Shown here: positions 21,596-50,482 of the stretch, piece after piece
Layout: each line of letters begins with the position of its first letter
How positions within the stretch are numbered: position 1 is the stretch's first letter
From: Nitrospiraceae bacterium
GTDB lineage: Bacteria; Nitrospirota; Thermodesulfovibrionia; UBA6902
NCBI GenBank assembly: GCA_003599275.1
Contig: QZJG01000046.1
Coordinates: 1 to 57,510 of the forward strand
Direction of reading: 5' to 3'
Length of the DNA: 57,510 nt
The notes under the pieces: generated by a model
The model's input: the letters and a program-made list of their open reading frames with translations, nothing else
What the model was told of the DNA's origin: nothing
Databases searched by the model: none
Made by a program: the position numbers and the translations under genes

Positions 21596-23296
21596 ATGAA
21601 CCTTAAAATCTGGCATAAGATGAGCATCGGCATCGCCATCCCGTCCCTTATTGCAATGGTCGGCGTAATGCTGAGTTATGAATATGTAAACAAGGTCAAA
21701 AACAGGCAGGGCTTTGTCCAGATTGCCGATGATCTGAGCGAAAAAGTGTTAGAGGTAAGGAGAAACGAGAAGAATTTTGTCCTTCATAAAACGGAAGAGT
21801 ATTACAAATATTGCCAGGATGCCATATCCACCTTCAGTAATTCGGTAAACAGTATTTCAGCGGAAATCGTTGTGCAGGTCGGGAAAGAGGATTTTTCGCT
21901 CCTTCGCAATTCCATCCATACGTATTCCGTATTTACCCATTCGCTGCTGCAGAATTATCAGCAGGAAGCAGGGCTTGTCGAGCAGGTCAGGGAAGAAGGA
22001 AGAAAGCTGGAATCGTTCGTCGCGGCGGAAAAGCACATCAACCACCTTTCAACGGATTTTATTCTCAACCTCAGGAGACTGGAAAAAAATTACATGCTTT
22101 TCCGTGATATTGACTCTTTTGACAGGCTGAATACCGCGCTTTTGGAATTAAAGAGTACAAAACACATTTGTATTGAGTGCATTCAGTACATCAGCGCTAT
22201 CAGCAGTCTTTTCTCTGTCTATCAGAAGAGCGACTCACTGGTAAATGATCTGCAGGTAGTGGGCGCAAGGCTTGAGGAAATCACGAACAAACTGGCCGCC
22301 AGCGAAAGACAGAAGATCAGCTCCTTTCTTACATTGACACAGCGCAACCTGCTCATAGCTCTCATACTGCTTTTATTCCTGGGGCCGTTTTTCGTGTATA
22401 CGACCGCAAACTATATAGTCGCCCCGATTAAAAGGCTTGACGACATAACAAGAAAGATCACAGAAGGTGATTTGACGCAGAGGGCGCCGATCAGGGAACG
22501 CGATGAGACATATTCACTGGCCCTTTCGTTTAACAAGATGCTGGACCACCTGCAGCTTACCCAGGAGTCCCTCGAAAAAAGCATGGAGCTTCTGCGTGAA
22601 AAACAGGCGTTGCTTGTAGAGTCCGAGAAACTCGCATCTCTTGGAACACTTGCCTCCGGCGTTGCCCACGAGCTGAATAATCCATTGAACAACATCTATC
22701 TTGCCACCCAGACGCTCTATAATGAGCTGGACATCGAGCACAGTCCGGGTATCGTCAAGGAAAGCGTAAAAGATATTTTTTCCCAGACCCTGAGGGTCAA
22801 AAGGATAGTCGGCGACCTCCTTGAGTTTGCAAGAGGGAAGGGGCCTGAACTGGGCCGGATAAGGATAATCGACATAGCTAACAAGGTGCTGAAGCGTATG
22901 ACGGCAACCGGAGAAATTGCGCGCGTAGAATACAATATTCAGGCCGCTGAAGATACCGAGATAGACGCGGACGGGCTTATGCTCGAGCAGGTCTTTGTCA
23001 ACCTCTTCAGCAACGCAGTAGACGCAATGAGCGGCGAAGGCTCATTGAATATTTCAATCGGCCCGGTTGATGGTTCCGTCAGGATAAATATTTCCGACAC
23101 CGGCAGGGGGATTTCGCCGGAGAACCTGCTGAAGGTTTTTGACCCGTTCTTTACGACAAAGGAAAAAGGCACGGGTTTGGGACTTGCAATCGTTTACAAT
23201 ATAATAAAGAAGCACAACGGAGAAATAGACGTAAAGAGCGAAGTGAACAAAGGTACGACTTTTATGATAACCTTGCCGAGGCAACATGGGTCTTAA
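21596..23296 (+). CDS. Cassette A: membrane sensor histidine kinase with HBM-like sensor
   Basis: This kinase opens cassette A. It has membrane helix 1 (IGIAIPSLIAMVGVMLSYEY), a periplasmic helical domain of about 230 residues with two R-x-E-K-N motifs (EVRRNEKNFVLHKTEEYY and LRRLEKNYMLFRD), membrane helix 2 (LIALILLLFLGPFFVYTTA), HAMP, HisKA (GTLASGVAHELNNPLNNI) and HATPase (NLFSNAVDAM, DTGRGI, TGLGLAIV). The paired R-x-E-K motifs resemble helical bimodular (HBM) sensor domains. The start at MNLKIWHKM matches the paralogues at 36569 and 46637. It overlaps the next regulator by 11 bases. Confidence 0.9.
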   Translation: MNLKIWHKMSIGIAIPSLIAMVGVMLSYEYVNKVKNRQGFVQIADDLSEKVLEVRRNEKNFVLHKTEEYYKYCQDAISTFSNSVNSISAEIVVQVGKEDFSLLRNSIHTYSVFTHSLLQNYQQEAGLVEQVREEGRKLESFVAAEKHINHLSTDFILNLRRLEKNYMLFRDIDSFDRLNTALLELKSTKHICIECIQYISAISSLFSVYQKSDSLVNDLQVVGARLEEITNKLAASERQKISSFLTLTQRNLLIALILLLFLGPFFVYTTANYIVAPIKRLDDITRKITEGDLTQRAPIRERDETYSLALSFNKMLDHLQLTQESLEKSMELLREKQALLVESEKLASLGTLASGVAHELNNPLNNIYLATQTLYNELDIEHSPGIVKESVKDIFSQTLRVKRIVGDLLEFARGKGPELGRIRIIDIANKVLKRMTATGEIARVEYNIQAAEDTEIDADGLMLEQVFVNLFSNAVDAMSGEGSLNISIGPVDGSVRINISDTGRGISPENLLKVFDPFFTTKEKGTGLGLAIVYNIIKKHNGEIDVKSEVNKGTTFMITLPRQHGS

Positions 23297-24614
23297 TATC
23301 CTCATAGCGGAAGACGAAGAAATCACTCTGAGGCATCTCAGATATGCACTGGAGAAAGAAGGCTACAACCTGACATGCGTCAAGAACGGGGCCGATGCGC
23401 TCGACAGGTTCGGTGAGGAAGATTTCGACATCCTTATAGCAGACATTAAAATGCCGAAGATGGACGGTTTGACGCTGTTAAGCAGGGTCAGGGAAAAATA
23501 TCCCGATACGGAAGTGATAATTATTACCGGCTTCGGCAGTATCGAGTCCGCGGTCAATGCGATGAAGAAAGGCGCAACGGACTATATCACCAAACCCTTC
23601 AACCTCGACGAGCTGAATCTCAAGATCAAAAAGATCCAGGAAAAAAAAAGCTTAAAGAAGGAAAACCTCGCACTTAAGGTTTCGCTCGCACTCGATAAGG
23701 ACACGCCCTTCATCGCAAAAAGCAAACCGATGCAGAGGGTGATAGAGGTCATCAGGAGCATCTCCAATTCCGACTGCAACGTTTTGATCACCGGTGAAAG
23801 CGGCGTCGGCAAGGGTCTCGTGGCAAAACTTATCCACCATACAGGCTTGCGAAAAGGCAAGCCCTTCCTGGCGATAAACTGCGCTATCTTTACTGAAGAG
23901 CTTCTGGCAAGCGAGCTTTTCGGACATGAAAGGGGCGCCTTTACCGGGGCCGTTGCAGCAAAACAGGGCCTGATTGAAATCGCCGACAGCGGCACCCTCT
24001 TTCTCGATGAGATTGCGGAGATGCCGCCGAATCTTCAGGCGAAGCTGTTGAAGGTCATAGAGGACAAGGAATTTTTCAGGGTCGGCGGCACGCGCCCCAT
24101 AAGGGTCGACGTCAGGTTTATGGCCGCTACAAATCAGAATATAAATGCGCTTGTTTCGTCCGGCAGATTCAGGGAGGATTTATACTACCGGCTGAATGTG
24201 ATGGATATTTATATCCCGCCTCTCAGGGAAAGGAAAAAAGACATTATTCCTCTGAGCAAACATTTTTTGGATAAACATTCAAGGAAGGCCAATAAAAAGA
24301 TAACGGATTTTTCCGGAGAAGCAATGGATATAGTCCTGGCCTATGGATTTCCCGGCAATGTGAGGGAACTCGAAAACATCATAGAGCGTGCCGTGATCCT
24401 GGAGAAAACTTCGAATATAACCCCCGAATGCCTGCCTCAAAGCATAAAGCTTTTTCATGTTGAAGCCATCAACCCTCAAAATATCAAGACAATCGATGAG
24501 ATCAATAAAGAATACGCTGAAAAGATCCTTGAATTTGCAGAGGACAACAAAACAAAGGCCTCGGAGCTTCTGGGCATCTCAAGGACGAGCCTCTGGAGGA
24601 TATTGAAAAAGTAG
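23286..24614 (+). CDS. Cassette A: sigma54-dependent response regulator
   Basis: Receiver (ILIAEDEEITLRHL, acceptor Asp in DILIADIKMPKMDG), AAA+ domain with GESGVGKGLVAKL, loop GAFTGA and FLDEIAEMPP, then a Fis-type HTH (NKTKASELLGISRTSLWRIL). It is 442 residues long and translationally coupled to the kinase upstream, its probable partner. A sigma54-like promoter lies 154 bases beyond its stop, in front of the FAEAGE-Usp gene, a likely target. It is closely related to the regulator at 29813. Confidence 0.93.
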   Translation: MGLNILIAEDEEITLRHLRYALEKEGYNLTCVKNGADALDRFGEEDFDILIADIKMPKMDGLTLLSRVREKYPDTEVIIITGFGSIESAVNAMKKGATDYITKPFNLDELNLKIKKIQEKKSLKKENLALKVSLALDKDTPFIAKSKPMQRVIEVIRSISNSDCNVLITGESGVGKGLVAKLIHHTGLRKGKPFLAINCAIFTEELLASELFGHERGAFTGAVAAKQGLIEIADSGTLFLDEIAEMPPNLQAKLLKVIEDKEFFRVGGTRPIRVDVRFMAATNQNINALVSSGRFREDLYYRLNVMDIYIPPLRERKKDIIPLSKHFLDKHSRKANKKITDFSGEAMDIVLAYGFPGNVRELENIIERAVILEKTSNITPECLPQSIKLFHVEAINPQNIKTIDEINKEYAEKILEFAEDNKTKASELLGISRTSLWRILKK

Positions 24615-24681
24615 TTGGTAGCAGGTAGTAAGTAGTTAAGGGAACAACTTCAGAAAATTTTCTCCTTAACTACTTACTACG
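24611..24681. repeat. Inverted AGTAGTT-type repeat, copy 2
   Basis: AAGTAGTTGGTAGCAGGTAG and later CTTAACTACTTACTACG form an imperfect hairpin directly after the regulator stop. It belongs to the same family as 10893-10970 and 27991-28070. Confidence 0.6.
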
Positions 24682-24767
24682 TAAATTCGTTCACCCCCGT
24701 TTATATCTGAAACAATAATTCAGCCTCCGAAATTTTCAATCTTCTTTTATTTCACCTGCTTCCACTC

Positions 24768-24783
24768 TGGCACGTTTTTTGGA
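24768..24783 (+). promoter_or_regulatory. Sigma54-like promoter of cassette A
   Basis: TGGCACG-TTTT-TTGGA: the -24 element is perfect and the spacing is right, but the -12 dinucleotide is GG where GC is usual. A 17-bp dyad, CTGAA-N7-TTCAG (24707-24723), lies about 45 bases upstream and could be an activator site. It precedes the FAEAGE-Usp gene at 24895. Confidence 0.5.
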
Positions 24784-24894: not shown

Positions 24895-25386
24895 TTGGAA
24901 CTGAAAGAAAAACTTTTATTCGTGACAAAAGGAGGTGAGGATTGCGACAAAGGTTTTACCTATATCCTTGAGCTTGCAAAGACCCTCGATGCGGGAATAG
25001 CGATGCTGATGGTTTACAGCAAAAAAGTGATGCAGACATATGAAGATGTGATGGCTGCTGTCGCATTTGCAGAGGCAGGAGACCGCGAAACGGTAAAGCA
25101 ACTGATGCAGGCGCAGGAAAATGATATTAAAGAGATATCTGACAGGAAGATTGCAGAAATGGTCGAACGCTGCAGGGAGAATTCGATCTCTTTCACTTAT
25201 ACCGTAGTCGCTGATGACGCTGTCAGCGCGATAAAGGATTTCCTGAAAACCAGGCCTGAAGTTGACATGGTACTGTTAAGCCCGAATCTTTCAGTAAGCA
25301 AAAAGAGCATTGACCTTAAAAAATTGCTTAAGAACATAACAAAACCGATCGTTACCGTCTCGATACCCGTCAGGTCGGAAGCGTAA
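24895..25386 (+). CDS. Cassette A: Usp-like protein with inserted FAEAGE module
   Basis: This is a 163-residue cytoplasmic protein. The N-terminal strand (KEKLLFVTKGG) and the C-terminal part (VDMVLLSPNL, then ITKPIVTVSIP) resemble a Usp/HUP Rossmann-like fold, but the ATP-binding G-2x-G-9x-G motif is missing. Between the second strand and next helix lies the module EDVMAAVAFAEAGDRETVKQL. A TTG start at 24895 with GGAGG in front is preferred; the frame is open to ATG 24832, but those codons come from a dispersed repeat. The alignment with the protein at 31374 supports the short start. Role unknown. Confidence 0.75.
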   Translation: MELKEKLLFVTKGGEDCDKGFTYILELAKTLDAGIAMLMVYSKKVMQTYEDVMAAVAFAEAGDRETVKQLMQAQENDIKEISDRKIAEMVERCRENSISFTYTVVADDAVSAIKDFLKTRPEVDMVLLSPNLSVSKKSIDLKKLLKNITKPIVTVSIPVRSEA

Positions 25387-25463: not shown

Positions 25464-25631
25464 ATGAAAAAACTTTTCAGGAAATTAGAGGACATTTATG
25501 CAGCAGCAGCATTTGCTGAGGCAGGAGAGTCTGAAACCGCAAGAGAGATTATCAGTGGGAGAAAAACAGCGGAAAAGCAGCTCCGGAAAAGAGCGGACAA
25601 AGAGCAGCGTCCGAGAATAAGGGCAAACTGA
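25464..25631 (+). CDS. Cassette A: stand-alone 55-residue FAEAGE protein
   Basis: This is a small gene with a perfect AGGAGG ahead of its ATG. It encodes 55 residues: a helical N-terminus (KKLFRKLEDIYAAAAFAEAG), the core GESETAREII, and a basic tail rich in Lys/Arg. It is equal in length and clearly related to the protein at 46719-46886 in cassette C, and to modules inside the Usp-like proteins of all three cassettes. No known family was recognised. Confidence 0.78.
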   Translation: MKKLFRKLEDIYAAAAFAEAGESETAREIISGRKTAEKQLRKRADKEQRPRIRAN

Positions 25632-25746: not shown

Positions 25747-25998
25747 ATGTCGGAAAGTAAAGTCAGAAAAAAGCCCATAGGCAAGATGCTTTTCATGGGC
25801 GTAATCTCAACAGCGCTTTATGCAGCTCTGCTTATGAAACAGGATTTTTTAAATGAGGTTTTCGGAAAAGGCGGGGTATACGCCTTCCTGCCGATAATTA
25901 CGGCGTTTGTATTCTCATTCATTCACGGCTCATTCACCGGTGACTTCTGGACCGTAATGGGCATAGAGGCCGCCAAAAAGAAAAAGGAGGTAAAGTAA
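25747..25998 (+). CDS. Cassette A: small two-helix membrane protein
   Basis: This is an 83-residue protein with two hydrophobic segments (MLFMGVISTALYAALLM and YAFLPIITAFVFSFIHGSF) and charged ends (KKPIGK and a C-terminal run of lysines). GGAGG precedes the ATG. It ends two bases before the TauE/SafE gene and is probably an accessory subunit of that exporter; this is inference from position only. I do not recognise a named family. Confidence 0.72.
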   Translation: MSESKVRKKPIGKMLFMGVISTALYAALLMKQDFLNEVFGKGGVYAFLPIITAFVFSFIHGSFTGDFWTVMGIEAAKKKKEVK

Positions 25999-25999: not shown

Positions 26000-27085
26000 A
26001 TGCACGATATAGCTCAGGCGGCATCAAATTTTATAAATCTCGATACTATAAATATCGTTTATCTTTTCCTTGTCGGTTTTGTGGGTGGACTCGTAAGCGG
26101 ATTCATAGGTTCAGGTGGCGCGTTTGTGCTTACTCCTGCCATGATGAGCATGGGGGTCCCCGGTCTTGTAGCAGTGGCAAGTAACATGTGCCACAAGTTT
26201 CCTAAAGCCCTTATCGGTTCCATTAAACGCGCAAAATACGGACAGGTTGACGTTAAGTTAGGCATAGTCCTCGGCATCTCTGCGGAGGCCGGCGTCCTTT
26301 ACGGCGCGCATATCCAGGAAGGCATCAAGAAGTCATTCGGAGAAGCAGGTTCTAATCTTTATGTGAGCGCGGCGTTTGTTGTGATACTCGCAATTGTTGG
26401 AGGCTTTGTTCTGCTCGATGCCTGGAAGACCAAAAAGTCCGGAAATACAAACGCGGAAGAAAAGGTCACCAAACTTGCCCGCTGGGTGCAGTCCGTCAAC
26501 ATTCCGGGCACAATGGTATATTTCAAAAGCCTGAACGCGAAGGTCTCTGTCCTGTTCACCATTCCCCTGGGTTTTGCGACAGGCATGCTGGCAGCTACGA
26601 TTGCTGTAGGCGGGTTTGTCGGCGTTCCTTCGATGATTTACGTGCTCGGCGCTCCAAGTCTTATGGCTTCCGCGACTGAGCTGGTCATCGCCTTTGTAAT
26701 GGGATTAGGCGGGTCCTTTAAATTTGCCATGAGCGGCCTGGTGGATATCCGGCTTGCGATGATCATTCTTGCAGGCTCTCTCTTCGGGATACAGTTGGGC
26801 GCGATAGGAACAACTTACGTAAAACCGTACATGATTAAAATGGTCATGGGTGTTATCATGGTCATCGTGCTCTTCAGCCGCGGCCTGATGGTCCCGGTAT
26901 ATATGTCACAATTAGGATTAATTCAGGAAATCAGCGAAAGCTCGGCAAAGCTGATGAAGGGTGTGAGTTTTGGCATAATGATATTCGCGCTGGCTCTTGG
27001 GGCGTTTATTGTGCTTAAGGCAATGTGGCAGGGACGCAGGGAGCAGCGGCTTGCCGCACAGGAAGCTTTTGAACATGTTAAGTAG
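26000..27085 (+). CDS. Cassette A: TauE/SafE-family membrane exporter
   Basis: This is a 361-residue permease with about eight hydrophobic segments and the duplicated TauE/SafE (formerly DUF81) repeat: GGLVSGFIGSGGAFVLTPAMM in the first half and GMLAATIAVGGFVGVPSMIYVLG in the second. The family exports sulfite, sulfoacetate and related anions in some bacteria; the substrate here is not known. A cytoplasmic loop of about 60 residues separates the halves. It is co-transcribed with the 83-residue protein and a tandem Usp. Confidence 0.88.
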   Translation: MHDIAQAASNFINLDTINIVYLFLVGFVGGLVSGFIGSGGAFVLTPAMMSMGVPGLVAVASNMCHKFPKALIGSIKRAKYGQVDVKLGIVLGISAEAGVLYGAHIQEGIKKSFGEAGSNLYVSAAFVVILAIVGGFVLLDAWKTKKSGNTNAEEKVTKLARWVQSVNIPGTMVYFKSLNAKVSVLFTIPLGFATGMLAATIAVGGFVGVPSMIYVLGAPSLMASATELVIAFVMGLGGSFKFAMSGLVDIRLAMIILAGSLFGIQLGAIGTTYVKPYMIKMVMGVIMVIVLFSRGLMVPVYMSQLGLIQEISESSAKLMKGVSFGIMIFALALGAFIVLKAMWQGRREQRLAAQEAFEHVK

Positions 27086-27135: not shown

Positions 27136-27990
27136 ATGGGTATGTACAGGAAAATACTCGTTGCTTTTGACGGTTCGGACTCAGGCGTGAATGCCCTCAT
27201 GCAGGCATTCACGCTTGCGAACGACGAGAAGTGCTGGATAACGGTGGCTAATGTCGTGCCCTCTTATGAAGGCGATCTGGACCTTACGGGAGTGAATGAC
27301 ATACACAAAACTCTGAGACACACCGGAGAAGAAATCCTGTCCAGGGCAAAGGGAATCGCGGAAAAAGAACGGGTGCTCATAAAAACCGTGCTCGAAGAAG
27401 GTGTCCCGTATGAAAAATTAGCAGAGATCGCTGAAGCGGATAACTGCGGCATCATCGTCATGGGAAGACGCGGCAAGTCCCGCATTGAGAAGGCTTTTAT
27501 CGGAAGCGTAACGGCACGCGTTATAGGACAGAGTGCAAGAGACGTCCTGGTCGTGCCTGAACATGCGGCAATCGGATGGAAGAACATCCTCTTTGCTACG
27601 GACGGCTCGGTATGCAGCAAAGCTGCTGCGGACAAGGCCGTAGAATTTTCGAAGGCATACGGCGCTGATCTCAAGGTCATATCGGTTGTAGATGTGCCTT
27701 CCGAGTTCTACGCAGAAGCGCCGAAGGCCGTTGAAGACCTCACGAGAAAGGCCAAAGGGTTTGTTGCTGATGTAAGAAAAGCGTCGGAATCGTCCGGCAT
27801 CAAGACCTCGACCTTTGTCGGAGAAGGCGAGGCATATCAGGTAATAACCGATTTTGCAAAAAATGAGAAGGCCGACGTCATTATCCTCGGAAGTCACGGA
27901 CGCACAGGTCTCAAAAGACTTCTCATGGGGAGCGTTACCGAGAAGGTCATCGGTTATGCCCCCTGTCCCGTGCTGATTGCAAAGTCGTAA
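27136..27990 (+). CDS. Cassette A: tandem universal stress protein
   Basis: Two Usp domains are joined in 284 residues. Both keep the ATP-binding pattern G-2x-G-9x-G(S): GRRGKSRIEKAFIGSVT in the first and GSHGRTGLKRLLMGSVT in the second. The first domain carries the local feature NDEKCWITVANVVPSYEGDL, shared with the Usp proteins at 34651 and 46927. It is the last gene of cassette A. The heptad repeat 27991-28070 follows directly. Confidence 0.92.
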   Translation: MGMYRKILVAFDGSDSGVNALMQAFTLANDEKCWITVANVVPSYEGDLDLTGVNDIHKTLRHTGEEILSRAKGIAEKERVLIKTVLEEGVPYEKLAEIAEADNCGIIVMGRRGKSRIEKAFIGSVTARVIGQSARDVLVVPEHAAIGWKNILFATDGSVCSKAAADKAVEFSKAYGADLKVISVVDVPSEFYAEAPKAVEDLTRKAKGFVADVRKASESSGIKTSTFVGEGEAYQVITDFAKNEKADVIILGSHGRTGLKRLLMGSVTEKVIGYAPCPVLIAKS

Positions 27991-28122: not shown

Positions 28123-29694
28123 ATGTCGCTCAAGAAAAAAATAATCCTCGGCTTTCTCACAAGCTCCGTAATCATTGCGGTCCTTGTCGTCTTTGGGTTT
28201 ATTAGCTTTATTGAAATCAGAAAGGAGATCCGCTACCTTGAGTTATCGGACAATTTAAGGGGCAAGTCCCTGCAGCTCCGGAGGCATGAGAAGAACTTTT
28301 TCCTCTACGGCGAGCTTGAAGAAGTCGAAAACGTCCACACGTATTTAAGGGACTTGAAGACCCTCATGGAGCAGAGCAGGCGCACATATAAAAACGATGA
28401 ATTAGCTGCACTCGAAAAGAAAACAGTTGAATATGAGCAGAAGTTTTTCCGCATTGAAAAAATCTTCACCGAGGTCCGGGCAGAGCTTGATCAAATCGAA
28501 CCGTTGAATTCAAAATATGCAGTCCTCTTCCGCCTCGTCGAATCGACATTTCTTGAGCGGCCACTCGTGAATGCAGAGCTTTTGCAGAAAACCTTCTCCC
28601 TGCGTGAAGGAGACCCTGTAATACAATGCCTGCAGGAGTTGCATATATTGACGGCTGCGCTGAGGAAAGACGGTGAGGAGGTCCTGACAATTTCCAGAGA
28701 GCTGGACAAATCGGCAAGGGAAAATGCGGAAAGGTTTATAAGCCTGTCACAAACGACCGCGCTGATATTGCTGCCCCTCTTCTTCGGCATCGGACTGCTC
28801 GCGCTCTTCGTTATCAGTCATGGCATTGTAAAACGTCTGAAGATTTTGTCGGATGCGATAGAAAGGACAGGGAAAGGGGATTTCTCGATGCTGTCCGTGC
28901 CGGAAAAACAGGACGAGGTAGGGGTGCTGATAGGGGCATTTAACAGGATGGAGACCGATCTGGTCGCAAGGGACAGGGAACTCACAAAAAAGAATGAGGA
29001 ATTGCATCAGAGCAGAAAACTCGCCTCCATCGGAACTCTTGCATCAGGGGTCGCACATGAGCTCAATAATCCGCTGAACAATATTTATACTACCGCTCAG
29101 AGGCTCATCAAAAAACCCGGCGAATGTCCGCCGTCCGTTATGAAAGGTCTTGACGATATCTTCAGCCAGGCGATGAGGGTCAAAAAAATTGTCGGCGACC
29201 TCCTTGAGTTTGCAAGAGGAAGAGATCCGCAGCTCAGGGAGACGGAATTGAGGGCTCTTGTCGCAAAGGCATATCAGTTTGTCGGCGCTTCTTCAGATAC
29301 CGGAAATATTCAATTTTCCATTGAGAGTAACGTGGACAGCGTTTCAATTCCCGTTGATACGGAACAGATGGAACAGGTCTTTATCAATCTTTTTAACAAT
29401 GCAGTTGAAGCAATGTCAGGAAGAGGCAATATAAATGTTGAGATAGAGTCTTCCGGCGACTTGGTGAAAATACTGGTGACCGATACAGGGCAAGGCATCT
29501 CCCGTGAAAATGCCGAAAAAATATTTGAACCCTTCTTTACTACTAAAGACAAGGGTACCGGGCTGGGACTTGCCATCGTTTTCAATATAATTCAGAAACA
29601 CAATGGTCATATAAACGTACAGAGTGAAGAAAGAAAAGGGACCACGTTTACCATTACGTTGCCGTACAGGCAAACAGGTCCCGAGAAGCACTAA
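28123..29694 (+). CDS. Cassette B: membrane sensor histidine kinase
   Basis: This is a 523-residue kinase: helix 1 (IILGFLTSSVIIAVLVVFGF), a periplasmic helical domain with the motif LQLRRHEKNFFLYGELEE, helix 2 (ALILLPLFFGIGLLALFVIS), HAMP, HisKA (GTLASGVAHELNNPLNNIYT) and HATPase (NLFNNAVEAM, DTGQGI, TGLGLAIV). It is a diverged paralogue of the kinase at 21596, with only one clear R-x-E-K-N motif in the sensor. It is followed by its likely partner regulator at 29813. Confidence 0.92.
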   Translation: MSLKKKIILGFLTSSVIIAVLVVFGFISFIEIRKEIRYLELSDNLRGKSLQLRRHEKNFFLYGELEEVENVHTYLRDLKTLMEQSRRTYKNDELAALEKKTVEYEQKFFRIEKIFTEVRAELDQIEPLNSKYAVLFRLVESTFLERPLVNAELLQKTFSLREGDPVIQCLQELHILTAALRKDGEEVLTISRELDKSARENAERFISLSQTTALILLPLFFGIGLLALFVISHGIVKRLKILSDAIERTGKGDFSMLSVPEKQDEVGVLIGAFNRMETDLVARDRELTKKNEELHQSRKLASIGTLASGVAHELNNPLNNIYTTAQRLIKKPGECPPSVMKGLDDIFSQAMRVKKIVGDLLEFARGRDPQLRETELRALVAKAYQFVGASSDTGNIQFSIESNVDSVSIPVDTEQMEQVFINLFNNAVEAMSGRGNINVEIESSGDLVKILVTDTGQGISRENAEKIFEPFFTTKDKGTGLGLAIVFNIIQKHNGHINVQSEERKGTTFTITLPYRQTGPEKH

Positions 29695-34604: not shown

Positions 34605-34612
34605 ATTGCAAT

Positions 34613-38422: not shown

Positions 38423-38562
38423 ATATTCATTCCGGCAATTCGGACGACTATGAAATAAACTGCTTGAAGCATTGACAACCATCCGATTATTTGATAATTG
38501 ATTAATTGAAAAAATGAGATAAGAAATTTATTGCCAATTTGAAAGGTCCAGAAAAAATCTGC

Positions 38563-39933: not shown

Positions 39934-40988
39934 TTATATTCTTGTATTAATGTTTCAATCAGCTTTTTCACCGGAACAATTTCCTTGCATCTGTACGCGT
40001 TTGACCCCGCAAAGACGAACCCTTCCTCAAGGTTCCCTTCCGCCGCATTTGTCAGCGCCCTGGCAATGCAATACGGGGCGGTTTTGGGATCGCAGGTTTT
40101 CAGGCAGCGGTACTTGCAGGACTTGGGTTTAGTCTGACCTTTTTTAATGTCCTCGACAAACCTGCTTTTGATCACCCTGCCGGGCAATCCGACCGGACTT
40201 TTTATGATTACCATGTCTTCTTTTTCTGCTTTTATGAACGCCTGTTTGAAATTTTCATGGACATCACATTCATCCGTGCAGACAAACCGGGTCCCCATTT
40301 GTACGCCTGAAGCCCCTAATCCAAGAACGCGGGCAATGTCGCTGCCGTCAAAAATTCCTCCGGCGGCAATGACCGGGACAGGAGGACCAAACGTGTTTGC
40401 AAACTTCACAATTTCAACAATCAGTTCATCAAGCGCGGGCGCCTTCCCATCAACCATATCCTGGAAGTCATAGCCGACATGACCGCCCGCCTTGGGGCCT
40501 TCAACTATCACGGCGTCCGGCAGCCTGTTGAAATTTCTTTTCCACTTGCTGCAAATGATGTTCAAAGCCCTTACCGATGAAACTATCGGGACCAGCTTTA
40601 TATTTTTCCCCTCGACGAATTTCGGCAGTTCTAAAGGTAGTCCGGCCCCGGATATGATCAGGTCAACGCCTTCATCCGCAGCGGTCCTTGCCAGCGATTC
40701 ATAATTGGAAAGCGCGACCAGCAGGTTCACGCCGATTATGCCTTTGCTCATGCTCCTGGCTTTTCTTATCTCCGCCTTTAAAGCCTCATTATTCACGGCT
40801 TCATATTCCAAACGCGGCAAGTCTTCAAACTTTCCGAGCCCGACGCCTGCAATCACCCCTACACAACCTTCATTTGCAACTGCCGCGGCAAGCCTCGAGC
40901 GTGAGACTCTTACCCCCATACCGCCCTGTATAATGGGAGGATAAATTGTTAAGTCGCCTATTCGTAATTCAGGTAATTTCATTTTCAT
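39918..40988 (-). CDS. Nitronate monooxygenase / 2-nitropropane dioxygenase-like flavoprotein
   Basis: This is a 356-residue TIM-barrel FMN enzyme: PPIIQGGMGVRVSRSRLAAA at the start, EGPKAGGHVGYD (active-site His region), PVIAAGGIFDGSDIARVLGL and GASGVQMGTRFVCTDE. The C-terminus has a cysteine cluster (SCKYRCLKTCDPKTAPYC) not needed for nitronate oxidation and found in a subset of these proteins, suggesting metal or Fe-S binding. The true reaction may differ, for example an enoyl-ACP-reductase-like role. Convergent with the radical SAM gene. Confidence 0.87.
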   Translation of the reverse strand: MKMKLPELRIGDLTIYPPIIQGGMGVRVSRSRLAAAVANEGCVGVIAGVGLGKFEDLPRLEYEAVNNEALKAEIRKARSMSKGIIGVNLLVALSNYESLARTAADEGVDLIISGAGLPLELPKFVEGKNIKLVPIVSSVRALNIICSKWKRNFNRLPDAVIVEGPKAGGHVGYDFQDMVDGKAPALDELIVEIVKFANTFGPPVPVIAAGGIFDGSDIARVLGLGASGVQMGTRFVCTDECDVHENFKQAFIKAEKEDMVIIKSPVGLPGRVIKSRFVEDIKKGQTKPKSCKYRCLKTCDPKTAPYCIARALTNAAEGNLEEGFVFAGSNAYRCKEIVPVKKLIETLIQEYNQAAE

Positions 40989-41301: not shown

Positions 41302-43308
41302 ATGAACTTCTTCAGGAAATCAGACGAAAAACTTCAGGCCGAAGCCATAGAGGAATTGCGGCAAAAGGTCGATTCCGCAAAACTGCCTGCCGATATTCAG
41401 CGCGTAGCAAACGACGAGATCGAGATGCTGTCGAAGATGAGCTCTTCCCTGGCTGAATACACTATAGGGCTTAATTATATCGACTACCTGATAGGCCTGC
41501 CCTGGAACAAAAAGACTGAAGATAATCTCGACCTTGAAAGGGCGGAGAAGGTACTGAATGAAAGGCATTACGGATTGAGCGAGATCAAGGAAAGGATAGT
41601 CGAGCACCTTGCCGTGAAGATACTGGCGACCCGCAGAAAACCCCGCATACTGGTAGTAGACGATGAAAAAATTGTCGTGAAAAATCTGGACCACGTGCTT
41701 AAAAAAGAAGGTTACGCGGTGACCACGGCAGACAGCGGGACAGAGGCCCTGAAGAAACTGGAGGAGTCTGATTTCGATGTTGTCATCACCGACCTCAGGA
41801 TGGAAGGGACCACGGGGATTGATATTCTGGAGAAGGCGAAGCACAAATACCCGGATACCCAGGTCATCATGATAACCGGTTATGCGTCTGTTGATTCCGC
41901 AATAGACGCCATTAAAAAAGGCGCTTATCATTATATTGCGAAACCCTTCAAACTCGACGACGTGTGTGATACCGTGAAGAAGGCGCTTGAGAAAAAGTTC
42001 TCTGCCAGAACGACAAAGGGCTACGTTCTCTGTTTTGCAGGACCTCCGGGGACAGGGAAGACCTCTCTCGGCAGGGCCATCGCGGATGCGCTCGGGAGAA
42101 AATTTGCAAGGATTTCATTGGGCGGCATAAAAGATGAAGCGGAGATAAGGGGGCACAGAAGGACGTATGCGGGCGCAATGCCCGGCCGGATTATAGAGGA
42201 GATCAGCAGGGTCGAATCGGCCAATCCCGTTATCATGCTGGACGAGCTGGACAAAATAGGCCATGATTTCAAGGGAGACCCGGCTTCGGCATTGCTTGAA
42301 GTCCTCGATCCGGAACAGAACCGCCAATTTACCGATCATTACGTTGACGTGCCGTTTGACCTCTCAAGCGTTATGTTTATTGTAACGGCAAACATCGCCG
42401 ACAATATCCAGGACGCCCTCAGGGACCGCATGGAGGTCATTGAATTCTCGGGCTATACGGAAGACGAGAAGACAAAGATCGCCCTTAAGTATCTTGTGCC
42501 GAAACAGATATATGAAAAAGGCCTTACGGAATATCCTCCTGAATTTACAACAGACGCTGTATTGAAGATAATCCGGGAATATACCCGTGAGGCAGGCATA
42601 AGAAACCTTGAGAGACAGATTGCAGCGGTCAACAGGAAGATAGCTTCCGACTTTGTTCATCATCGGGAAGGAAGAGTGATAAAGGTAACGCCGGACATGG
42701 TTGAAAAATATCTCGGCCCCGGGAGGTATTTTTTTGAAGTAGCGGACGAAAAAAACCGCGTAGGGGTCGCCACGGGCCTTGTATGGACCGAGGTGGGAGG
42801 TGCCATCATTTTTGTCGAGGCTGCGAAGATGAAGGGGAAAGGCGAGCTGATACTGACGGGCTCCCTTGGCAATATTATGCGCGAATCAGCGCAGGCCGCT
42901 TTGAGTTATTTACGGAGCAATGCGTCATCTTTGAATATTGATGAGAATTTTTTCGAGTCCCGGGACATCCATGTGCATGTGCCTGCAGGGGCCATTCCCA
43001 AAGACGGGCCTTCCGCCGGGACCACCATCGCGATTTCGCTTATGTCCCTGTTAACGGGAAGACCGGCGAAAAGGGACGTGGCGGTTTCCGGAGAAATAAC
43101 ATTAAGCGGACGGGTACTGCCTGTCGGGGGAGTAAAAGAGAAACTTTTAGCGGCACGCAGGGCCGGGGTCAAATCGGTAATCCTGCCGTTGAAAAACAGG
43201 GTGGATATCGACGTTTTGTCTCATGACGTCAAAAAGGACATGGACATCAGGATGGTTGACAGGCTTGAGGAGATGATCGATCTTGTTCTGGTGAAAGAAA
43301 GGGTATGA
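41302..43308 (+). CDS. Lon-family protease with an inserted response-regulator receiver
   Basis: This is a 668-residue chimera. Residues 1-110 match the helical region just ahead of the Lon ATPase (YIDYLIGLPWNKKTEDNLDL, HYGLSEIKERIVEHLAV). Residues ~115-230 are a full receiver (ILVVDDEKIVVKNL, acceptor Asp in DVVITDLRMEGTTG, MITGYASVDSA, IAKPFK). Lon resumes with Walker A CFAGPPGTGKTSLGRAIADA, Walker B VIMLDELDKIG and the protease domain with catalytic Ser in PKDGPSAGTT and Lys in GGVKEKLLAARRAG. The usual ~300-residue N-terminal substrate domain is missing. Phosphorylation may gate ATPase or protease activity (inference). Confidence 0.93.
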   Translation: MNFFRKSDEKLQAEAIEELRQKVDSAKLPADIQRVANDEIEMLSKMSSSLAEYTIGLNYIDYLIGLPWNKKTEDNLDLERAEKVLNERHYGLSEIKERIVEHLAVKILATRRKPRILVVDDEKIVVKNLDHVLKKEGYAVTTADSGTEALKKLEESDFDVVITDLRMEGTTGIDILEKAKHKYPDTQVIMITGYASVDSAIDAIKKGAYHYIAKPFKLDDVCDTVKKALEKKFSARTTKGYVLCFAGPPGTGKTSLGRAIADALGRKFARISLGGIKDEAEIRGHRRTYAGAMPGRIIEEISRVESANPVIMLDELDKIGHDFKGDPASALLEVLDPEQNRQFTDHYVDVPFDLSSVMFIVTANIADNIQDALRDRMEVIEFSGYTEDEKTKIALKYLVPKQIYEKGLTEYPPEFTTDAVLKIIREYTREAGIRNLERQIAAVNRKIASDFVHHREGRVIKVTPDMVEKYLGPGRYFFEVADEKNRVGVATGLVWTEVGGAIIFVEAAKMKGKGELILTGSLGNIMRESAQAALSYLRSNASSLNIDENFFESRDIHVHVPAGAIPKDGPSAGTTIAISLMSLLTGRPAKRDVAVSGEITLSGRVLPVGGVKEKLLAARRAGVKSVILPLKNRVDIDVLSHDVKKDMDIRMVDRLEEMIDLVLVKERV

Positions 43309-44532: not shown

Positions 44533-44922
44533 TTACCCAGTGGGCGGTTTGCGTAATGCCGAACAGGCCCTTCTTACAATTTCTCTGAGCTCATCAATTT
44601 TAAACGGTTTTATTATAAACGCAAAGGCGCCTTTATGACAGGCCTCGGCGGCCGTTTCTTTTTTGCCGAAACCCGTGATGATTATCACCCGTATGTCAGG
44701 ACAGTTAGCTTTGGCAAATTCGAGCACCTTCATGCCGTCAACAACGCCCATCATGAGATCCGTTATGACTATGTCGAAATGTTTTTTTTTCAGTTCATCA
44801 ATAGCAGCAGAGCCCCTGGTAAATGTCTCGACTGCAAACCCTTCTTTTTCAAACAGCCGTTTGAGTCTCTTCCCGACAATCGGCTCATCATCGACAATCA
44901 TGAGACGGGGCTTGTCACTCAT
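44533..44922 (-). CDS. Cassette C: single-domain receiver protein
   Basis: This is a 129-residue CheY-like receiver (LMIVDDEPIVGKRLKRLFEK, acceptor Asp in DIVITDLMMGVVDG, IITGFGKKETAAEA, Lys in IIKPFK) with no output domain. It starts 5 bases after the kinase stop and is probably phosphorylated by that kinase. In cassettes A and B the regulator in this position is a full sigma54 activator. It might pass the phosphate to another partner or compete for it. Confidence 0.92.
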   Translation of the reverse strand: MSDKPRLMIVDDEPIVGKRLKRLFEKEGFAVETFTRGSAAIDELKKKHFDIVITDLMMGVVDGMKVLEFAKANCPDIRVIIITGFGKKETAAEACHKGAFAFIIKPFKIDELREIVRRACSALRKPPTG

Positions 44923-44927: not shown

Positions 44928-46637
44928 TCAGTCCGTCTCCTCATAAAGCGGGAACCTTACCGTAAAGGTCGTGCCTTCGCCGACCTTGCTCCTGACATTA
45001 ATATCGCCTGAATGCTTTTCAACAAGACTGTGTGTTACGGCCAGGCCGAGTCCTGTTCCCCCGCCGGACTGTTTGGTGGTATAAAAAGGCTCAAAAATAT
45101 TTTTCAGGTCTTTTCCCGGTATCCCGCATCCCGTATCGCTTATTTCAACGGTAATGAATTTCCCCTGCCCGTCAGGTCCGGCGCAGATGGAAAGGTCCCC
45201 GGACCCTTTCATGGCATGGATGGCGTTGACCATTATGTTGACAAATATTTCTTCGAGCTTGCTCTGGTTGCCTCTTATGAAGACAGGTGTTTTATGAATG
45301 TCTTTTTTCAGATGTATGTGTGAGACCTTCAACTGGTTTGCAACGAGATTGATGGATTCCGCAAGTACATTGATGATGTCTGTCTTTTCCATGGCGGTAG
45401 ACTTTCGGGCGCCTGCGAAGTCAAGGAGGTCCTCGATGATGTGCTTTGCGCGTTCGCTCTGAGAAATTATGTCCTGGATATGCTCTTTAAGCTCTTCAGC
45501 GGAAAGCTCATTAAGGTCCTCCTTCATCGTCTCCGCCGTAAGGGAGATATTGTTGAGCGGATTGTTGAGCTCGTGCGCGACCCCCGAAACGAGAAACCCC
45601 AGGGACGCGCGCTTTTCAACTTCCACATGCTTTTCATGGAGAAGCTCAAGGCTTTTTTCCAGCGAGCTGCGGGTAAGCTGCAGATGGTCCAGCATCCTGT
45701 TGAAGGACACTGCAAGGGTGTATGTTTCGTCATGTTCTTTAATCGGCGCCCTCAATGTCATGTCGCCCTGTGAAATTTTCCGTGTGATATCGGCAAGCCG
45801 TTTTATCGGTGTAACGATATATGAGGCGGTCTGGTAGACGAGCAGCGGGCCGAATGTGCAGAGCAGGATAAGGGCGATAAGCAGAAGCCGTTGTGTGGAT
45901 GAGAAAAAAGCATTTACCTTTTGCCGCTCGCTCCGGGCTATCCTGTCTGTCGTTTCTTCAAGCGTGTTGCCGATCCCCTGCAGGTCGTTTTCCATCCCGG
46001 TTATTTTGTTGTAGACTGAAATGAGATTGTTGATCGCAGTTGTGTACTGTACGCAGTATAAACAGAAAGGCGCGAGATTGTTGAAACCGGCAAGCGCATC
46101 GTTCAGCCTGTCAAAGGACGTCTTGTCGCGGAACAGCATGTAGTTTTTTTCAAGGCGCCTGAGGTCCAGGACAAAGTTCGGCGAGAGCTCCCGGTCGTGG
46201 TTTTCCGCTTTGACAAAGGCCTCTAATTTTCTCCCTTCCTCCCTTACCTTTTCAACGCTAAGGTCCTCCTGCCGGTAATTTTTCAGTAAGGCGTGTATAA
46301 GGTCTGAATATGTCCGGAGCGAATCGCGAAGGAGTAAAAATTCATCATTCCCTGCCTGGGCGACTATTTCAGGCGATATGTTGTTGAGCGATTTATTTAA
46401 AGTGTCCGTCGCGTCTTTGCTGTATCTGTAATATTCGTCTGTCTTGTGGAGGAGGAAATTTTTTTCATTTCGTCTGACTTCAAGCACCCGTTCCCTCAGA
46501 TCGTCCGCTATCTCGACAAAACCATGCCGGAGTTTTACATCGTTGATGTAGGCATAAGTAAAAAAACCTCCTATCAGGGTGATAAGGGCGGGGATGGAGA
46601 TGCCGATGATCATCTTATGCCAGATTTTCAGGTTCAT
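44928..46637 (-). CDS. Cassette C: membrane sensor histidine kinase with HBM-like sensor
   Basis: This is a 569-residue paralogue of the kinases at 21596 and 36569: MNLKIWHKMIIGISIPALIT, EVRRNEKNFLLHKTDEYY, LRRLEKNYMLFRDKTSF, second membrane helix (LLIALILLCTFGPLLVY), HAMP, HisKA (GFLVSGVAHELNNPLNNISL) and HATPase (NIMVNAIHAM, DTGCGIPG, GGGTGLGLAVTH). A CxxC in the sensor (PFCLYC) matches CIEC at the same place in the kinase at 21596 and CNEC in the truncated copy; this may be a metal or redox site. Confidence 0.93.
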   Translation of the reverse strand: MNLKIWHKMIIGISIPALITLIGGFFTYAYINDVKLRHGFVEIADDLRERVLEVRRNEKNFLLHKTDEYYRYSKDATDTLNKSLNNISPEIVAQAGNDEFLLLRDSLRTYSDLIHALLKNYRQEDLSVEKVREEGRKLEAFVKAENHDRELSPNFVLDLRRLEKNYMLFRDKTSFDRLNDALAGFNNLAPFCLYCVQYTTAINNLISVYNKITGMENDLQGIGNTLEETTDRIARSERQKVNAFFSSTQRLLLIALILLCTFGPLLVYQTASYIVTPIKRLADITRKISQGDMTLRAPIKEHDETYTLAVSFNRMLDHLQLTRSSLEKSLELLHEKHVEVEKRASLGFLVSGVAHELNNPLNNISLTAETMKEDLNELSAEELKEHIQDIISQSERAKHIIEDLLDFAGARKSTAMEKTDIINVLAESINLVANQLKVSHIHLKKDIHKTPVFIRGNQSKLEEIFVNIMVNAIHAMKGSGDLSICAGPDGQGKFITVEISDTGCGIPGKDLKNIFEPFYTTKQSGGGTGLGLAVTHSLVEKHSGDINVRSKVGEGTTFTVRFPLYEETD

Positions 46638-46718: not shown

Positions 46719-46886
46719 TCATGTCCTGAGCTGGTTATTCGGGCGCGCTGAAGGCCTGGTGGTATCTCTTTTGTCATACCGCTTCTCTTCCTCCCTCATT
46801 ATCTCTCGCGCGGTATCGTGTTCTCCTGCCTCGGCGAATGCCGTCGCCGTCATAATGTTCTCCAGTTTTTTTATCAGTTTTTTCAT
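46719..46886 (-). CDS. Cassette C: stand-alone 55-residue FAEAGE protein
   Basis: ATG at 46886 is preceded by AAAGGAGG on the minus strand. The protein has 55 residues: KKLIKKLENIMTATAFAEAG, GEHDTAREIM, then a charged, Arg/Lys-rich tail. It has the same length as the small protein at 25464-25631 and the same first 31-residue pattern; the tails differ. It lies directly downstream of the tandem Usp and upstream of the kinase. No known family recognised. Confidence 0.78.
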   Translation of the reverse strand: MKKLIKKLENIMTATAFAEAGEHDTAREIMREEEKRYDKRDTTRPSARPNNQLRT

Positions 46887-46926: not shown

Positions 46927-47784
46927 CTATCGGCTTTCTTTTACAATGAGCACCGGACACGGCGCATACCCTATGACTTTCTCCGTGACGTTTCCGATGA
47001 AAAATCTCCTGACTCCTGTCCTTCCGTGGCTCCCCATTACGATGATATCGGACTTGGCATCCCCGGCAAGCTTTGTGATTACTTTGTATGTCTCTCCTTC
47101 ACGGACCAGCGCTGTAAAGTTTATTCCGTCGGCCCTCTTTCCGATATCTTCCGTATACCGTTTTGCCTTTACGACAAGCTCTTCGACGGCGTCAGGCGCC
47201 TGCGCGGAGAATTCATCCGTAACATCTACGACCGACACAACCATTAAGCTGCCGCCGTAAGAAGCTGCGAGCTCCATCGCCTTTTCCGATGCGAAACCGC
47301 TGTATTTCGATCCATCAGTCGGGAGAAGGATATTTTTCCATCCTAATCCGGCATCTTTGGGAACAATCAGCACGTCCCTCCTGCTGTGCGCTATGACGCC
47401 GGCGGTAACGCTTCCCACAAGCGTCCTTTCGATATGGGACATACCCCGTCTTCCCATGACGATCAGGTCGAAGTTGTTATCTTCGGCGGCATCGAGAATC
47501 ACTTCGAACGGACTCCCCTCTTTCAGCATTGTCCTGATGACGGTATCTTCCTCCTTTGCGGTCCTGATTATTCCTGCGAGGATTTTTTCTCCTTCTTCCA
47601 GCAGAGTCCTCGTCACTTTTTCCTTCATGCTCAGCACATCGAACTGGTCCTGGAAAACGGGGACTGCGGTAATAACGGTTATCCAGCTCTTGTCGTCACG
47701 GGCGACCCTGCATGCCTGTCTGAAGGCGTTTCTGCTTGTATCGGAACCGTCAACCGCCACCAGTATTTTTCTGTATTTTGACAT
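46927..47784 (-). CDS. Cassette C: tandem universal stress protein
   Basis: Two Usp domains in 285 residues. The first has GRRGMSHIERTLVGSVT; the second GSHGRTGVRRFFIGNVT, where the last Ser is Asn. The opening YRKILVAVDGSDTSRNAFRQ and DDKSWITVITAVP show it is the counterpart of the tandem Usp at 27136. It follows the membrane protein at 47825 and precedes the small FAEAGE gene. Confidence 0.92.
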   Translation of the reverse strand: MSKYRKILVAVDGSDTSRNAFRQACRVARDDKSWITVITAVPVFQDQFDVLSMKEKVTRTLLEEGEKILAGIIRTAKEEDTVIRTMLKEGSPFEVILDAAEDNNFDLIVMGRRGMSHIERTLVGSVTAGVIAHSRRDVLIVPKDAGLGWKNILLPTDGSKYSGFASEKAMELAASYGGSLMVVSVVDVTDEFSAQAPDAVEELVVKAKRYTEDIGKRADGINFTALVREGETYKVITKLAGDAKSDIIVMGSHGRTGVRRFFIGNVTEKVIGYAPCPVLIVKESR

Positions 47785-47824: not shown

Positions 47825-48538
47825 CTATGCTTCCTTCTTTACCTTTGCCTTTTTCATGCTGAGTCCTATCCCGTCAAAGATGTAAAATATGGCATATCCC
47901 CACCACATGGTATAGGCCACGTAGAATATCAGGAGTCCGGACATCATGCCTGCATGGTCGGCGACCTTGTTCGCGTCGATCTTGTAGAAATTGTAGCCGG
48001 GCTCCACGCCTTTTTTAATCACATCGGAAACTGCTTTTGCCTCGGCAACGAGTTTGTCCTTTTTAAGGGCCTTATCTATCCCGCTTAACGCCGTCCACCA
48101 GTTTTTCATTACGTGCTTTTCATCATATCCATAGCGTTCGGAAACTGCTTTGCCGTCATTTTTGAACATGGAATCGGAATCGGCAAGCGCGCTCTGAAGG
48201 ACTGCCCCGAGATCGCCTTCTATCCTGAGAAGCTGCGCATCTTTCACCTCTACGCTTGCGCCGGCAGTGGTGAAGAGCTTTGCAGTGTTTTCGGCTTCCT
48301 CAGCCTTTTCAAGTTTTATGGTAACGGAAAGGGGTTTTCCCGCAAACCCTTCAACAGACTTTGCAACTTTCGGGATGAAGTATGATGATCCCTTTGAAAG
48401 TTTATTGAACATATCGTCGGAAAAGACGAGTCCGTTTTTGCCGTTGAATACGGGTGAAAAGATCAGGACCAGAACGGCAAGGAACGATATTGCAAATACA
48501 ACCCCGACTGTAAATGGTTTTTTATTCCTTATCAGCAT
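47825..48538 (-). CDS. Cassette C: unrecognised two-helix membrane protein
   Basis: This is a 237-residue protein with an N-terminal membrane helix (FTVGVVFAISFLAVLVLIFS), an extracytoplasmic domain of about 160 residues (KPLSVTIKLEKAEEAENTAK, then VMKNWWTALSGIDKALK), and a C-terminal helix rich in aromatics (LLIFYVAYTMWWGYAIFYIF). It starts one base after the TauE/SafE stop and is likely an exporter partner, analogous in position to the 83-residue and Alph_Pro_TM-like proteins of cassettes A and B, though not related in sequence that I can see. Confidence 0.75.
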   Translation of the reverse strand: MLIRNKKPFTVGVVFAISFLAVLVLIFSPVFNGKNGLVFSDDMFNKLSKGSSYFIPKVAKSVEGFAGKPLSVTIKLEKAEEAENTAKLFTTAGASVEVKDAQLLRIEGDLGAVLQSALADSDSMFKNDGKAVSERYGYDEKHVMKNWWTALSGIDKALKKDKLVAEAKAVSDVIKKGVEPGYNFYKIDANKVADHAGMMSGLLIFYVAYTMWWGYAIFYIFDGIGLSMKKAKVKKEA

Positions 48539-49916: not shown

Positions 49917-49941
49917 CCTTGACTCATGACTCTTGACTCTG
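49917..49941. repeat. TGACTCA-type heptads
   Basis: CTTGACTCATGACTCTTGAC is the opposite-strand form of the AGTCA heptads at 32429 and 32937. A nearby GGGCGGGCTTGAAACCCGCC hairpin also occupies this gap between the FAEAGE-Usp and TauE/SafE genes. Confidence 0.5.
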
Positions 49942-49944
49942 TCT

Positions 49945-50418
49945 TTATGCCGTTGAAGGCATTTCACTTTTTGAAACAACCACCAATGGACATTTCAGTT
50001 TCTTCCACGCCTCCGAGAGCGCTTTGCCACCTCCTTTGCATTCGATATTAAGCTCCGGTGTCGAGCCGATTACTACAAACAATACGTCCTTCTTCTTTTC
50101 CGTGTAGTCGAGTATCGCCTTTTTCATGCATCCTTCTTCCGTGACCAGATTGCACCGTATCCCCTCTCTCGCTGCCTCTGAAAGGAATTCATGCAGTGCA
50201 TTGTTTTTTGCTTCCGATATTTTCAGGTAAAGAACATCTATGGCCGCCTTAATTCTTCTGCTTATGTTTATGGCGTACTTAAAGACATTTGTATCGAATT
50301 TCTCTTCAGAAAGCGCAAGCAATATCGTGTTCTTGCTCTTGAGTATCTCCCTTGCCTTTTCATGCTCACCTGCTTCCGCAAAGGTTATCGCCGACATCAG
50401 GTCATCAAAATTTTTCAT
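49945..50418 (-). CDS. Cassette C: Usp-like protein with N-terminal FAEAGE module
   Basis: This is a protein of about 157 residues. The module comes first (KNFDDLMSAITFAEAGEHEK), followed by an uninterrupted Usp-like fold (NTILLALSEEKFDTNVFKYA, then FVVIGSTPEL and KCPLVVVSKSE). In the paralogues at 24895 and 31374 the module is inside the fold, so domain order differs. ATG at 50418 is preferred over 50424 on ribosome-site spacing. A sigma54-like element lies about 65 bases upstream. Confidence 0.78.
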   Translation of the reverse strand: MKNFDDLMSAITFAEAGEHEKAREILKSKNTILLALSEEKFDTNVFKYAINISRRIKAAIDVLYLKISEAKNNALHEFLSEAAREGIRCNLVTEEGCMKKAILDYTEKKKDVLFVVIGSTPELNIECKGGGKALSEAWKKLKCPLVVVSKSEMPSTA

Positions 50419-50482
50419 GGTCATGTCCTGTAAATTTATCGTTTAAAGAATGGCGTCGTTTCTCTGAAATTGAGATGATGTA

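Follow-up and report, generated by a model that had tools for sequence, protein, structure and literature searches.

Two gene clusters of D. vulgaris are the closest described counterparts of the locus analysed here. In one report (PMC3333781), DVU3302-3298 are the targets of DVU3305, DVU3304, and DVU3303, the last being a regulator with Lon protease, and some of these targets carry UspA (universal stress protein; Usp) domains; orthologs, reported as the regulator and Lon, occur in Thermodesulfovibrio yellowstonii, and DVU3298-3305 is upregulated at high pH, upon heat shock, and in stationary phase. Another report (PMC10102598) describes DVU3299 as a "putative anion transporter" under DVU3305 control that is required in chlorate (fitness -2.3), and DVU0539-0545 as a kinase, a regulator, two Usp proteins, a PSE transporter, and a 133-aa transmembrane (TM) protein with molybdate phenotypes. 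The window studied here, i.e., the whole stretch of DNA that was analysed, is one whole contig of 57,510 bases (QZJG01000046.1) from the 3.05-Mb, 89% complete genome of a Nitrospiraceae bacterium, and it carries three cassettes (A, B, and C), each combining a sensor kinase, a Usp-like protein with a FAEAGE motif (FAEAGE-Usp), a TauE/SafE transporter, a membrane partner, and a tandem Usp. Three of the six TauE matches and seven of the 19 Usp matches of this genome fall inside the window.

The cassettes are conserved, sulfur-linked, and sigma54-associated and, judged by description, a variant of a regulon type known from D. vulgaris. The initial annotation of this DNA knew of no described system with this composition, which is too strong, as the descriptions of DVU3298-3305 and DVU0539-0545 come very close to it. 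DVU3298-3305 shares with the window a kinase, a sigma54 regulator, a receiver-containing Lon, Usp-domain proteins, membrane proteins, and a putative anion transporter; in the window, a sigma54 regulator and a kinase adjoin Usp/transporter genes, and Lon is fused with a receiver (REC-Lon). The window differs from it in having three cassettes, each with its own partner type, and a REC-Lon standing apart from A and B; a gene-order match with DVU3302-3298 is proposed from the descriptions. The transporter of DVU0539-0545 belongs to the PSE family (TC 2.A.98), whereas those of the window are TauE proteins. All three share PF01925 with C. necator TauE, above the cut-off, but they come with Usp, a type-specific membrane partner, and two-component control. 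A Usp acts on a transporter in TeaD/TeaABC and Rv2623/Rv1747, as we propose here, although the transporter families are different and FAEAGE-Usp proteins have no nucleotide motif. Regulation of TeaABC by TeaD in Halomonas is given in a title cited in PMC9453808, and TeaD is among the Foldseek matches of FAEAGE-Usp B.

Our best explanation, to which we assign a probability of roughly 55%, is that A, B, and C are three sigma54-controlled anion-transport modules of a dsr-bearing organism, with Usp proteins adjusting the transporter. The cassettes lie where the initial annotation had placed them, and each contains the kinase, FAEAGE protein, TauE/SafE transporter, and tandem Usp it had listed. The sigma54 regulator that it assigned to every operon is absent from operon C, in which the regulator is a lone receiver (44533-44922); the sigma54 regulator stands divergent from it (50712-52073). 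The features are as follows.

21596-23296 (+): A, sensor histidine kinase (HAMP, HisKA, HATPase_c); alternative TTG start at 21545, ATG at 21596 likelier
23286-24614 (+): A, NtrC-type sigma54 response regulator (Response_reg, Sigma54_activat, HTH_8; GAFTGA loop)
24768-24783 (+): A, sigma54-like promoter TGGCACGTTTTTTGGA, variant -12
24895-25386 (+): A, FAEAGE-Usp; probable TTG start after AAAGGAGG, longer frame from 24832; Usp 18.9 bits
25464-25631 (+): A, 55-aa FAEAGE micro-protein (E 2.6e-8 to the FAEAGE alignment); AAGGAGG upstream
25747-25998 (+): A, 83-aa membrane protein (TM83), the type-A partner
26000-27085 (+): A, TauE/SafE transporter (PF01925, 9.4e-35)
27136-27990 (+): A, tandem Usp (PF00582, 1.9e-61) with two nucleotide-binding motifs
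28123-29694 (+): B, sensor histidine kinase
29813-31144 (+): B, NtrC-type sigma54 response regulator
31337-31352 (+): B, sigma54-like promoter TGGCATGCTTCATGCT
31374-31862 (+): B, FAEAGE-Usp
31994-32929 (+): B, TauE/SafE transporter (PF01925, 4.8e-52)
32929-33741 (+): B, Alph_Pro_TM membrane protein (PF09608, 2.6e-49)
33744-34604 (+): B, tandem Usp with two nucleotide-binding motifs
34606-35073 (+): B, additional single Usp (PF00582, 2e-19) without nucleotide motif
36569-37879 (+): truncated kinase related to kinases A and C; it has the sensor, HAMP, and the beginning of HisKA but lacks HATPase
41302-43308 (+): REC-Lon, a Lon protease with inserted receiver (Lon_C 3e-83, Response_reg 4.8e-30, AAA 5e-25)
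44533-44922 (-): C, lone receiver
44928-46637 (-): C, sensor histidine kinase with a predicted McpS-like helical sensor
46719-46886 (-): C, 55-aa FAEAGE micro-protein (E 3.1e-9 to the FAEAGE alignment); GGAGG upstream
46927-47784 (-): C, tandem Usp
47825-48538 (-): C, 237-aa membrane protein (TM237), the type-C partner; kin in loci L117, L119, and L124
48540-49823 (-): C, TauE/SafE transporter (PF01925, 2.5e-37)
49945-50424 (-): C, FAEAGE-Usp with N-terminal FAEAGE motif
50484-50499 (-): C, sigma54-like promoter TGGCACGGTTATTGAA, variant -12
50712-52073 (+): NtrC-type sigma54 regulator divergent from C (GAFTGA loop); nearest relative in L099 (68%)

The kinases of A, B, and C each have HAMP, HisKA, and HATPase domains, and the transporters score 120.8 (A), 177.4 (B), and 129.3 bits (C) with PF01925 (Pfam cut-off 32.6). 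As noted initially, the accessory membrane protein is distinct in each cassette, being the 83-aa protein in A, Alph_Pro_TM in B, and the 237-aa protein in C. The B protein is indeed PF09608 (E 2.6e-49, 168.5 bits, above the cut-off), with 74.8 bits to NCBIfam TIGR02186 (cut-off 255.25); the 83-aa and 237-aa proteins match nothing in Pfam or NCBIfam at E 0.01.

When 84,980 species genomes were searched with an alignment of 20 FAEAGE-Usp sequences, there were 272 pattern matches (vs. about 10 expected for uniform DNA) and 152 relatives, and 76 loci were kept, the limit being 80. Nearly all are Nitrospirota metagenome-assembled genomes (MAGs); three are labelled Actinomycetes and one Deferribacteres. 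For 76 FAEAGE-Usp genes, 3 kb or more of downstream sequence was available, and 70 of them are followed by a same-strand TauE gene, which indicates that the cassettes are not due to chance. Among the 98 cassettes called in the window and the kept loci, 42 have TM83 (a family of 42 open reading frames [ORFs] among the loci), 38 have Alph_Pro_TM, one (in the window) has TM237, and 17 have no called partner. Types A (TM83) and B (Alph_Pro_TM) recur across Nitrospirota and Actinomycetes-labelled MAGs, and their gene orders are repeated among loci: kinase, response regulator, FAEAGE-Usp, micro-protein, TM83, TauE, and tandem Usp in type A; kinase, response regulator, FAEAGE-Usp, TauE, Alph_Pro_TM, tandem Usp, and single Usp in type B. 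Each exporter type has its own membrane partner, as had been suggested: TauE_A accompanies TM83 in 41 of the 42 TM83 cassettes, the remaining one being cut by the locus end, and Alph_Pro_TM cassettes have TauE_B in 36 and TauE_A in two of 38 cases. Type C was found in three further genomes (L117, L119, and L124, the last without tandem Usp), and a fourth, FAEAGE-free exporter group, in which TauE comes with a 145-aa membrane protein, in eight loci. A and B sometimes adjoin: among loci with 8-kb flanks at either end, a TM83 gene is present in seven of the 17 B loci, and Alph_Pro_TM in none of the seven A loci. At L117 (6793-13544), a Na/sulfate symporter, two CitMHS-type transporters, and a Na/Ca exchanger adjoin FAEAGE-Usp genes; at L077, a SulP-like protein (judged by eye) adjoins a FAEAGE carrier. 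A Usp-plus-two-TM fusion before TauE in L086 and L118 was not used as evidence, its Usp likeness having been seen by eye only; that of L086 matched nothing in Pfam at E 5 and did not match the TM83 model.

The initial annotation took A, B, and C for diverged copies of one cassette, the duplication being old and kept. TauE identity in the window is 31% between A and B and 33% between A and C, while TauE_A shares 97% identity with its counterpart in another MAG (L089) and TauE_B shares 90% with the one in L044. A recent triple duplication in this genome was rejected, because TauE_A is closer to L089 than to B or C, and the cassettes therefore do not stem from local duplication; old, kept paralogy is supported, and the local triplication of a single cassette is not. 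The gene trees were made with FastTree only, without bootstrap, and 17 of the 98 cassettes lack a called partner. TM83 cassettes occupy one side of a single branch in the TauE tree (39 rows, support 100), and the Alph_Pro_TM label needs two changes there (38 rows); the tandem-Usp tree needs two label changes for TM83 and one for Alph_Pro_TM. The changes number 18 for FAEAGE-Usp (minimum 3, shuffled 43.4), 11 for the regulator (minimum 4, shuffled 25.2), and 12 for the kinase (minimum 4, shuffled 22.4), which rules out clean co-inheritance of all parts. The trees of TauE and tandem Usp thus divide by type, and those of the other three less cleanly. Unrelated histories in a neighbourhood conserved nowhere else, named initially as what would overturn the proposal, are not observed for the exporter and the tandem Usp; the kinases approach this in part. 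One clade (support 95-98), younger and independent of the exporter type, unites kinase A with kinase C and its sister, the truncated kinase (36569-37879). Judging from the label changes and this clade, the exporter types are of old origin and have been retained, and sensors have been exchanged.

FAEAGE appears to be a TPR-like module of about 25 residues. Its residues agree with positions 8, 11, 15, 20, and 24 of the TPR consensus. It differs from TPR repeats in that it is mostly a single repeat inserted into unrelated proteins, all below Pfam cut-offs; tandem FAEAGE proteins score at best 23.6 bits with TPR_12 (cut-off 30.1) and 23.2 bits with TPR_4 (cut-off 27). The FAEAGE helix is located inside the Usp part in A and B, and N-terminal to it in C, and the three FAEAGE-Usp proteins score 18.9 (A), 19.9 (B), and 17.7 bits (C), under the PF00582 cut-off of 24. 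The AF2 model of FAEAGE-Usp B (predicted local distance difference test [pLDDT] 76.3) has Usp proteins as its best Foldseek matches (E 2.8e-6); the module is modelled as two helices, with low confidence (hairpin pLDDT about 53-62). The Usp nucleotide motif, scanned as G-x2-G-x(8-10)-G-[STN], is present in 71 of 73 tandem Usp proteins, but in none of the 98 FAEAGE-Usp and 34 single Usp proteins.

Two 55-aa FAEAGE micro-ORFs, at 25464-25631 (+) and 46886-46719 (-), each with a ribosome-site-like sequence, had been missed by the initial annotation. A micro-ORF was called in 32 of the 42 TM83 cassettes, another survey flagging one in seven of the remaining 10, and in none of the 38 Alph_Pro_TM cassettes; a ribosome-site core precedes 32 of the 35 testable micro-ORFs. 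A motif model applied to the window and L038-L125 gave 108 FAEAGE-Usp-class ORFs, 57 ORFs of at most 110 residues, three receivers, and three PPDK-like proteins, these ORFs being non-independent and the seeds having been picked by regular expression. Lone receivers carry FAEAGE as a C-terminal tail. In the PPDK-like proteins (L086:12649-15312, L118:1832-4492, and L117:2769-5405), FAEAGE is an insertion missing from most of 14 aligned rows, at one site in L086 and L118, in both of which PPDK_N was matched, and at another in L117, with a degenerate form in L096. FAEAGE-free PPDK-like relatives stand after kinase and receiver genes in other loci.

A PDB sequence search with the micro-protein and FAEAGE-Usp returned no match, and literature searches returned no paper for "FAEAGE" and Alph_Pro_TM, although a string search would miss another name, and none joining Thermodesulfovibrio, Usp, and sulfite exporter. 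No description was found for the exporter-partner typing, for the micro-proteins, or for the shared FAEAGE module. We tentatively suggest, at somewhat less than even odds, that FAEAGE is an undescribed transposable docking module which wires its carriers into one complex, and that the operons of dsr-bearing organisms in which these parts occur switch and gate their anion transporters, with micro-proteins as free competitors or bridges and the receiver-controlled Lon, where present, as a further client or editor.

Sigma54 control was also proposed initially, and it agrees with promoter-like sites, the RpoN gene found in this genome, and the GAFTGA loops of the regulators. Sites were scored with a matrix, loosened after inspection of the window sites, at a threshold of at least 21 of 25; the FAEAGE-Usp upstream regions were shifted to the homologous start and the control regions were not. 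Such sites precede FAEAGE-Usp in 35 of 42 type-A and 29 of 38 type-B cassettes, in the one window C cassette, and in 10 of 16 without called partner, vs. 10/325 for other ORFs, 1/87 for TauE, 1/73 for tandem Usp, 0/58 for response regulators, and 0/53 for histidine kinases. Of the 35 type-A sites that reach this threshold, 30 differ at -12, where TTGG or TTGA replaces TTGC, and type-B sites mostly have TGGCAT at -24; the variant -12 sites are perhaps a distinct sigma54 promoter class. The window A (24768-24783) and C (50484-50499) sites have TTGG or TTGA at -12, as in type-A relatives. As for the signal input, the kinase-C sensor has no Pfam sensor-domain match; the top four Foldseek matches of its model (pLDDT 86.5) are chains of McpS (HBM-type; E 1.7e-4 to 7.7e-4), with TMq of only 0.37-0.48.

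The sulfur link comes from dsrA, which scores above the curated cut-off in this genome. FAEAGE matches were accepted at E 0.001 and dsrA at E 1e-80, a limit set after viewing the list to admit fragments. Among 148 Nitrospirota genomes, 45 have both, seven FAEAGE only, 19 dsrA only, and 77 neither (Fisher 1.8e-15, phylogeny ignored); among 149 genomes from the class to which an Actinomycetes-labelled MAG belongs, the corresponding numbers are 17, 1, 1, and 130 (Fisher 3.4e-20, phylogeny likewise ignored). In 11 of the 52 FAEAGE-positive Nitrospirota genomes, even the best match is weaker than 1e-10, and one of these genomes (G112) is probably a false positive. Six of the 18 FAEAGE matches in the second class rest on motif columns alone and two lie outside the motif; the motif was present in four of six inspected loci (L126-L129) and not intact in two (L130 and L131). 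In another set of six genomes, picked by their loci, five, including all three labelled Actinomycetes, have dsrA above the cut-off.

For the signal, cargo, direction of transport, docking, and gating, we infer the following. The membrane kinase, with an McpS-like two-bundle sensor, would phosphorylate the NtrC-type regulator, which would open the sigma54 promoter before the FAEAGE-Usp gene. The operon would then supply a TauE-family transporter, its type-specific membrane partner, a tandem Usp with ATP motifs, and one or two motif-less Usp proteins. The tandem Usp may report the nucleotide state, and the FAEAGE hairpin, whether in Usp, micro-protein, lone receiver, or PPDK-like protein, may dock the soluble parts on each other or on the transporter and set its activity. 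The cargo would likely be an inorganic sulfur oxyanion or a toxic look-alike. Several points weigh against such anion-transport modules. The strict sigma54 consensus reaches at least 10 matches in only 10 of the 98 upstream regions, type A being mostly blank, and the promoter matrix was loosened post hoc in view of the window sites. The McpS likeness of the modelled sensor suggests sensing of an organic acid, not an anion. No FAEAGE match was found in 19 of the 64 dsrA genomes of the Nitrospirota sample, and phylogeny was uncorrected. DVU3303-3305 are detrimental in chlorate, whereas the transporter helps (PMC10102598). The Usp content, together with the way in which the DVU regulon responds to chlorate, heat, pH, and stationary phase, would also fit a general stress operon.

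This last reading, in which Usp is central and the transporter, with no sulfur tie, is just one envelope-stress effector among several, is unlikely in our judgment, but it draws on the rise of DVU3298-3305 with high pH, heat shock, and stationary phase (PMC3333781) and on the Na/Ca exchanger (L117) and SulP-like protein (L077, by eye) adjoining FAEAGE carriers, as well as NhaA and a Na/H exchanger in the window. The coincidence of FAEAGE-Usp with dsrA in two lineages and TauE behind 70 of 76 FAEAGE-Usp genes speak against it. Import of sulfate, sulfite, or thiosulfate for respiration by the TauE proteins, which we regard as similarly improbable, would fit the dsrA association and a highly expressed Archaeoglobus tauE homolog, to which possible sulfite import is assigned (PMC3949148). 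However, named characterised members export (C. necator TauE), and at least three sigma54-gated paralogs with stress proteins suit tolerance more than bulk uptake.

It is still less likely that FAEAGE is a recognition tag for REC-Lon, by which FAEAGE carriers would undergo phosphorylation-controlled proteolysis. The window REC-Lon (41302-43308), with its receiver between the Lon N-terminal part and the AAA domain, is 3.5 kb from the nearest FAEAGE gene and does not adjoin cassettes A or B. Full-length REC-Lon (at least 900 bits) was found in 20 of the 148 Nitrospirota genomes, all of them FAEAGE-positive (20/52 vs. 0/96 FAEAGE-negative; Fisher 4.6e-11), and among the matches listed the nearest FAEAGE lies no more than 1 kb away in 14 of the 20 and no more than 5 kb away in 16, these distances being upper bounds. 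In L120, L122, and L123, the kinase, sigma54 response regulator, REC-Lon, FAEAGE-Usp, TM83, TauE, and tandem Usp are clustered together, and the cofitness of DVU3303-3305 exceeds 0.9 (PMC10102598). However, 32 of the 52 FAEAGE-positive genomes, some of them incomplete, show no REC-Lon, and neither does any of the 149 second-class genomes at E 1e-180 (with no positive control in the set), 18 of which have a FAEAGE-Usp-family match; REC-Lon as a universal FAEAGE reader is weakened by this. A chance cluster of gene families misread as cassettes is refuted, common as Usp and NtrC regulators are, by the recurrence of gene order and partner types in loci of many genomes.

Between B and C lie genes for NhaA, the truncated kinase, a radical SAM/B12 protein (38539-39933), a nitronate monooxygenase-like protein (39918-40988), REC-Lon, and a Na/H exchanger, and 5693-15495 holds type II secretion/type IV pilus-like genes (secretin, ATPase, F protein, and PilN/PilM). 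Elsewhere in this genome (L114:8143-11031), another TauE gene occurs with tandem and partial Usp genes, and no FAEAGE was found there.

Organisms bearing dsr must handle toxic sulfite and look-alike anions, and little is known about the regulation of their anion traffic. The cassettes, which co-occur with dsrA in two lineages and whose exporter types have fixed partners, offer testable candidates. The FAEAGE micro-proteins are a family below the usual annotation length and have been missed by annotation. The shared FAEAGE module, if true, would explain how many orphan Usp proteins reach their targets.

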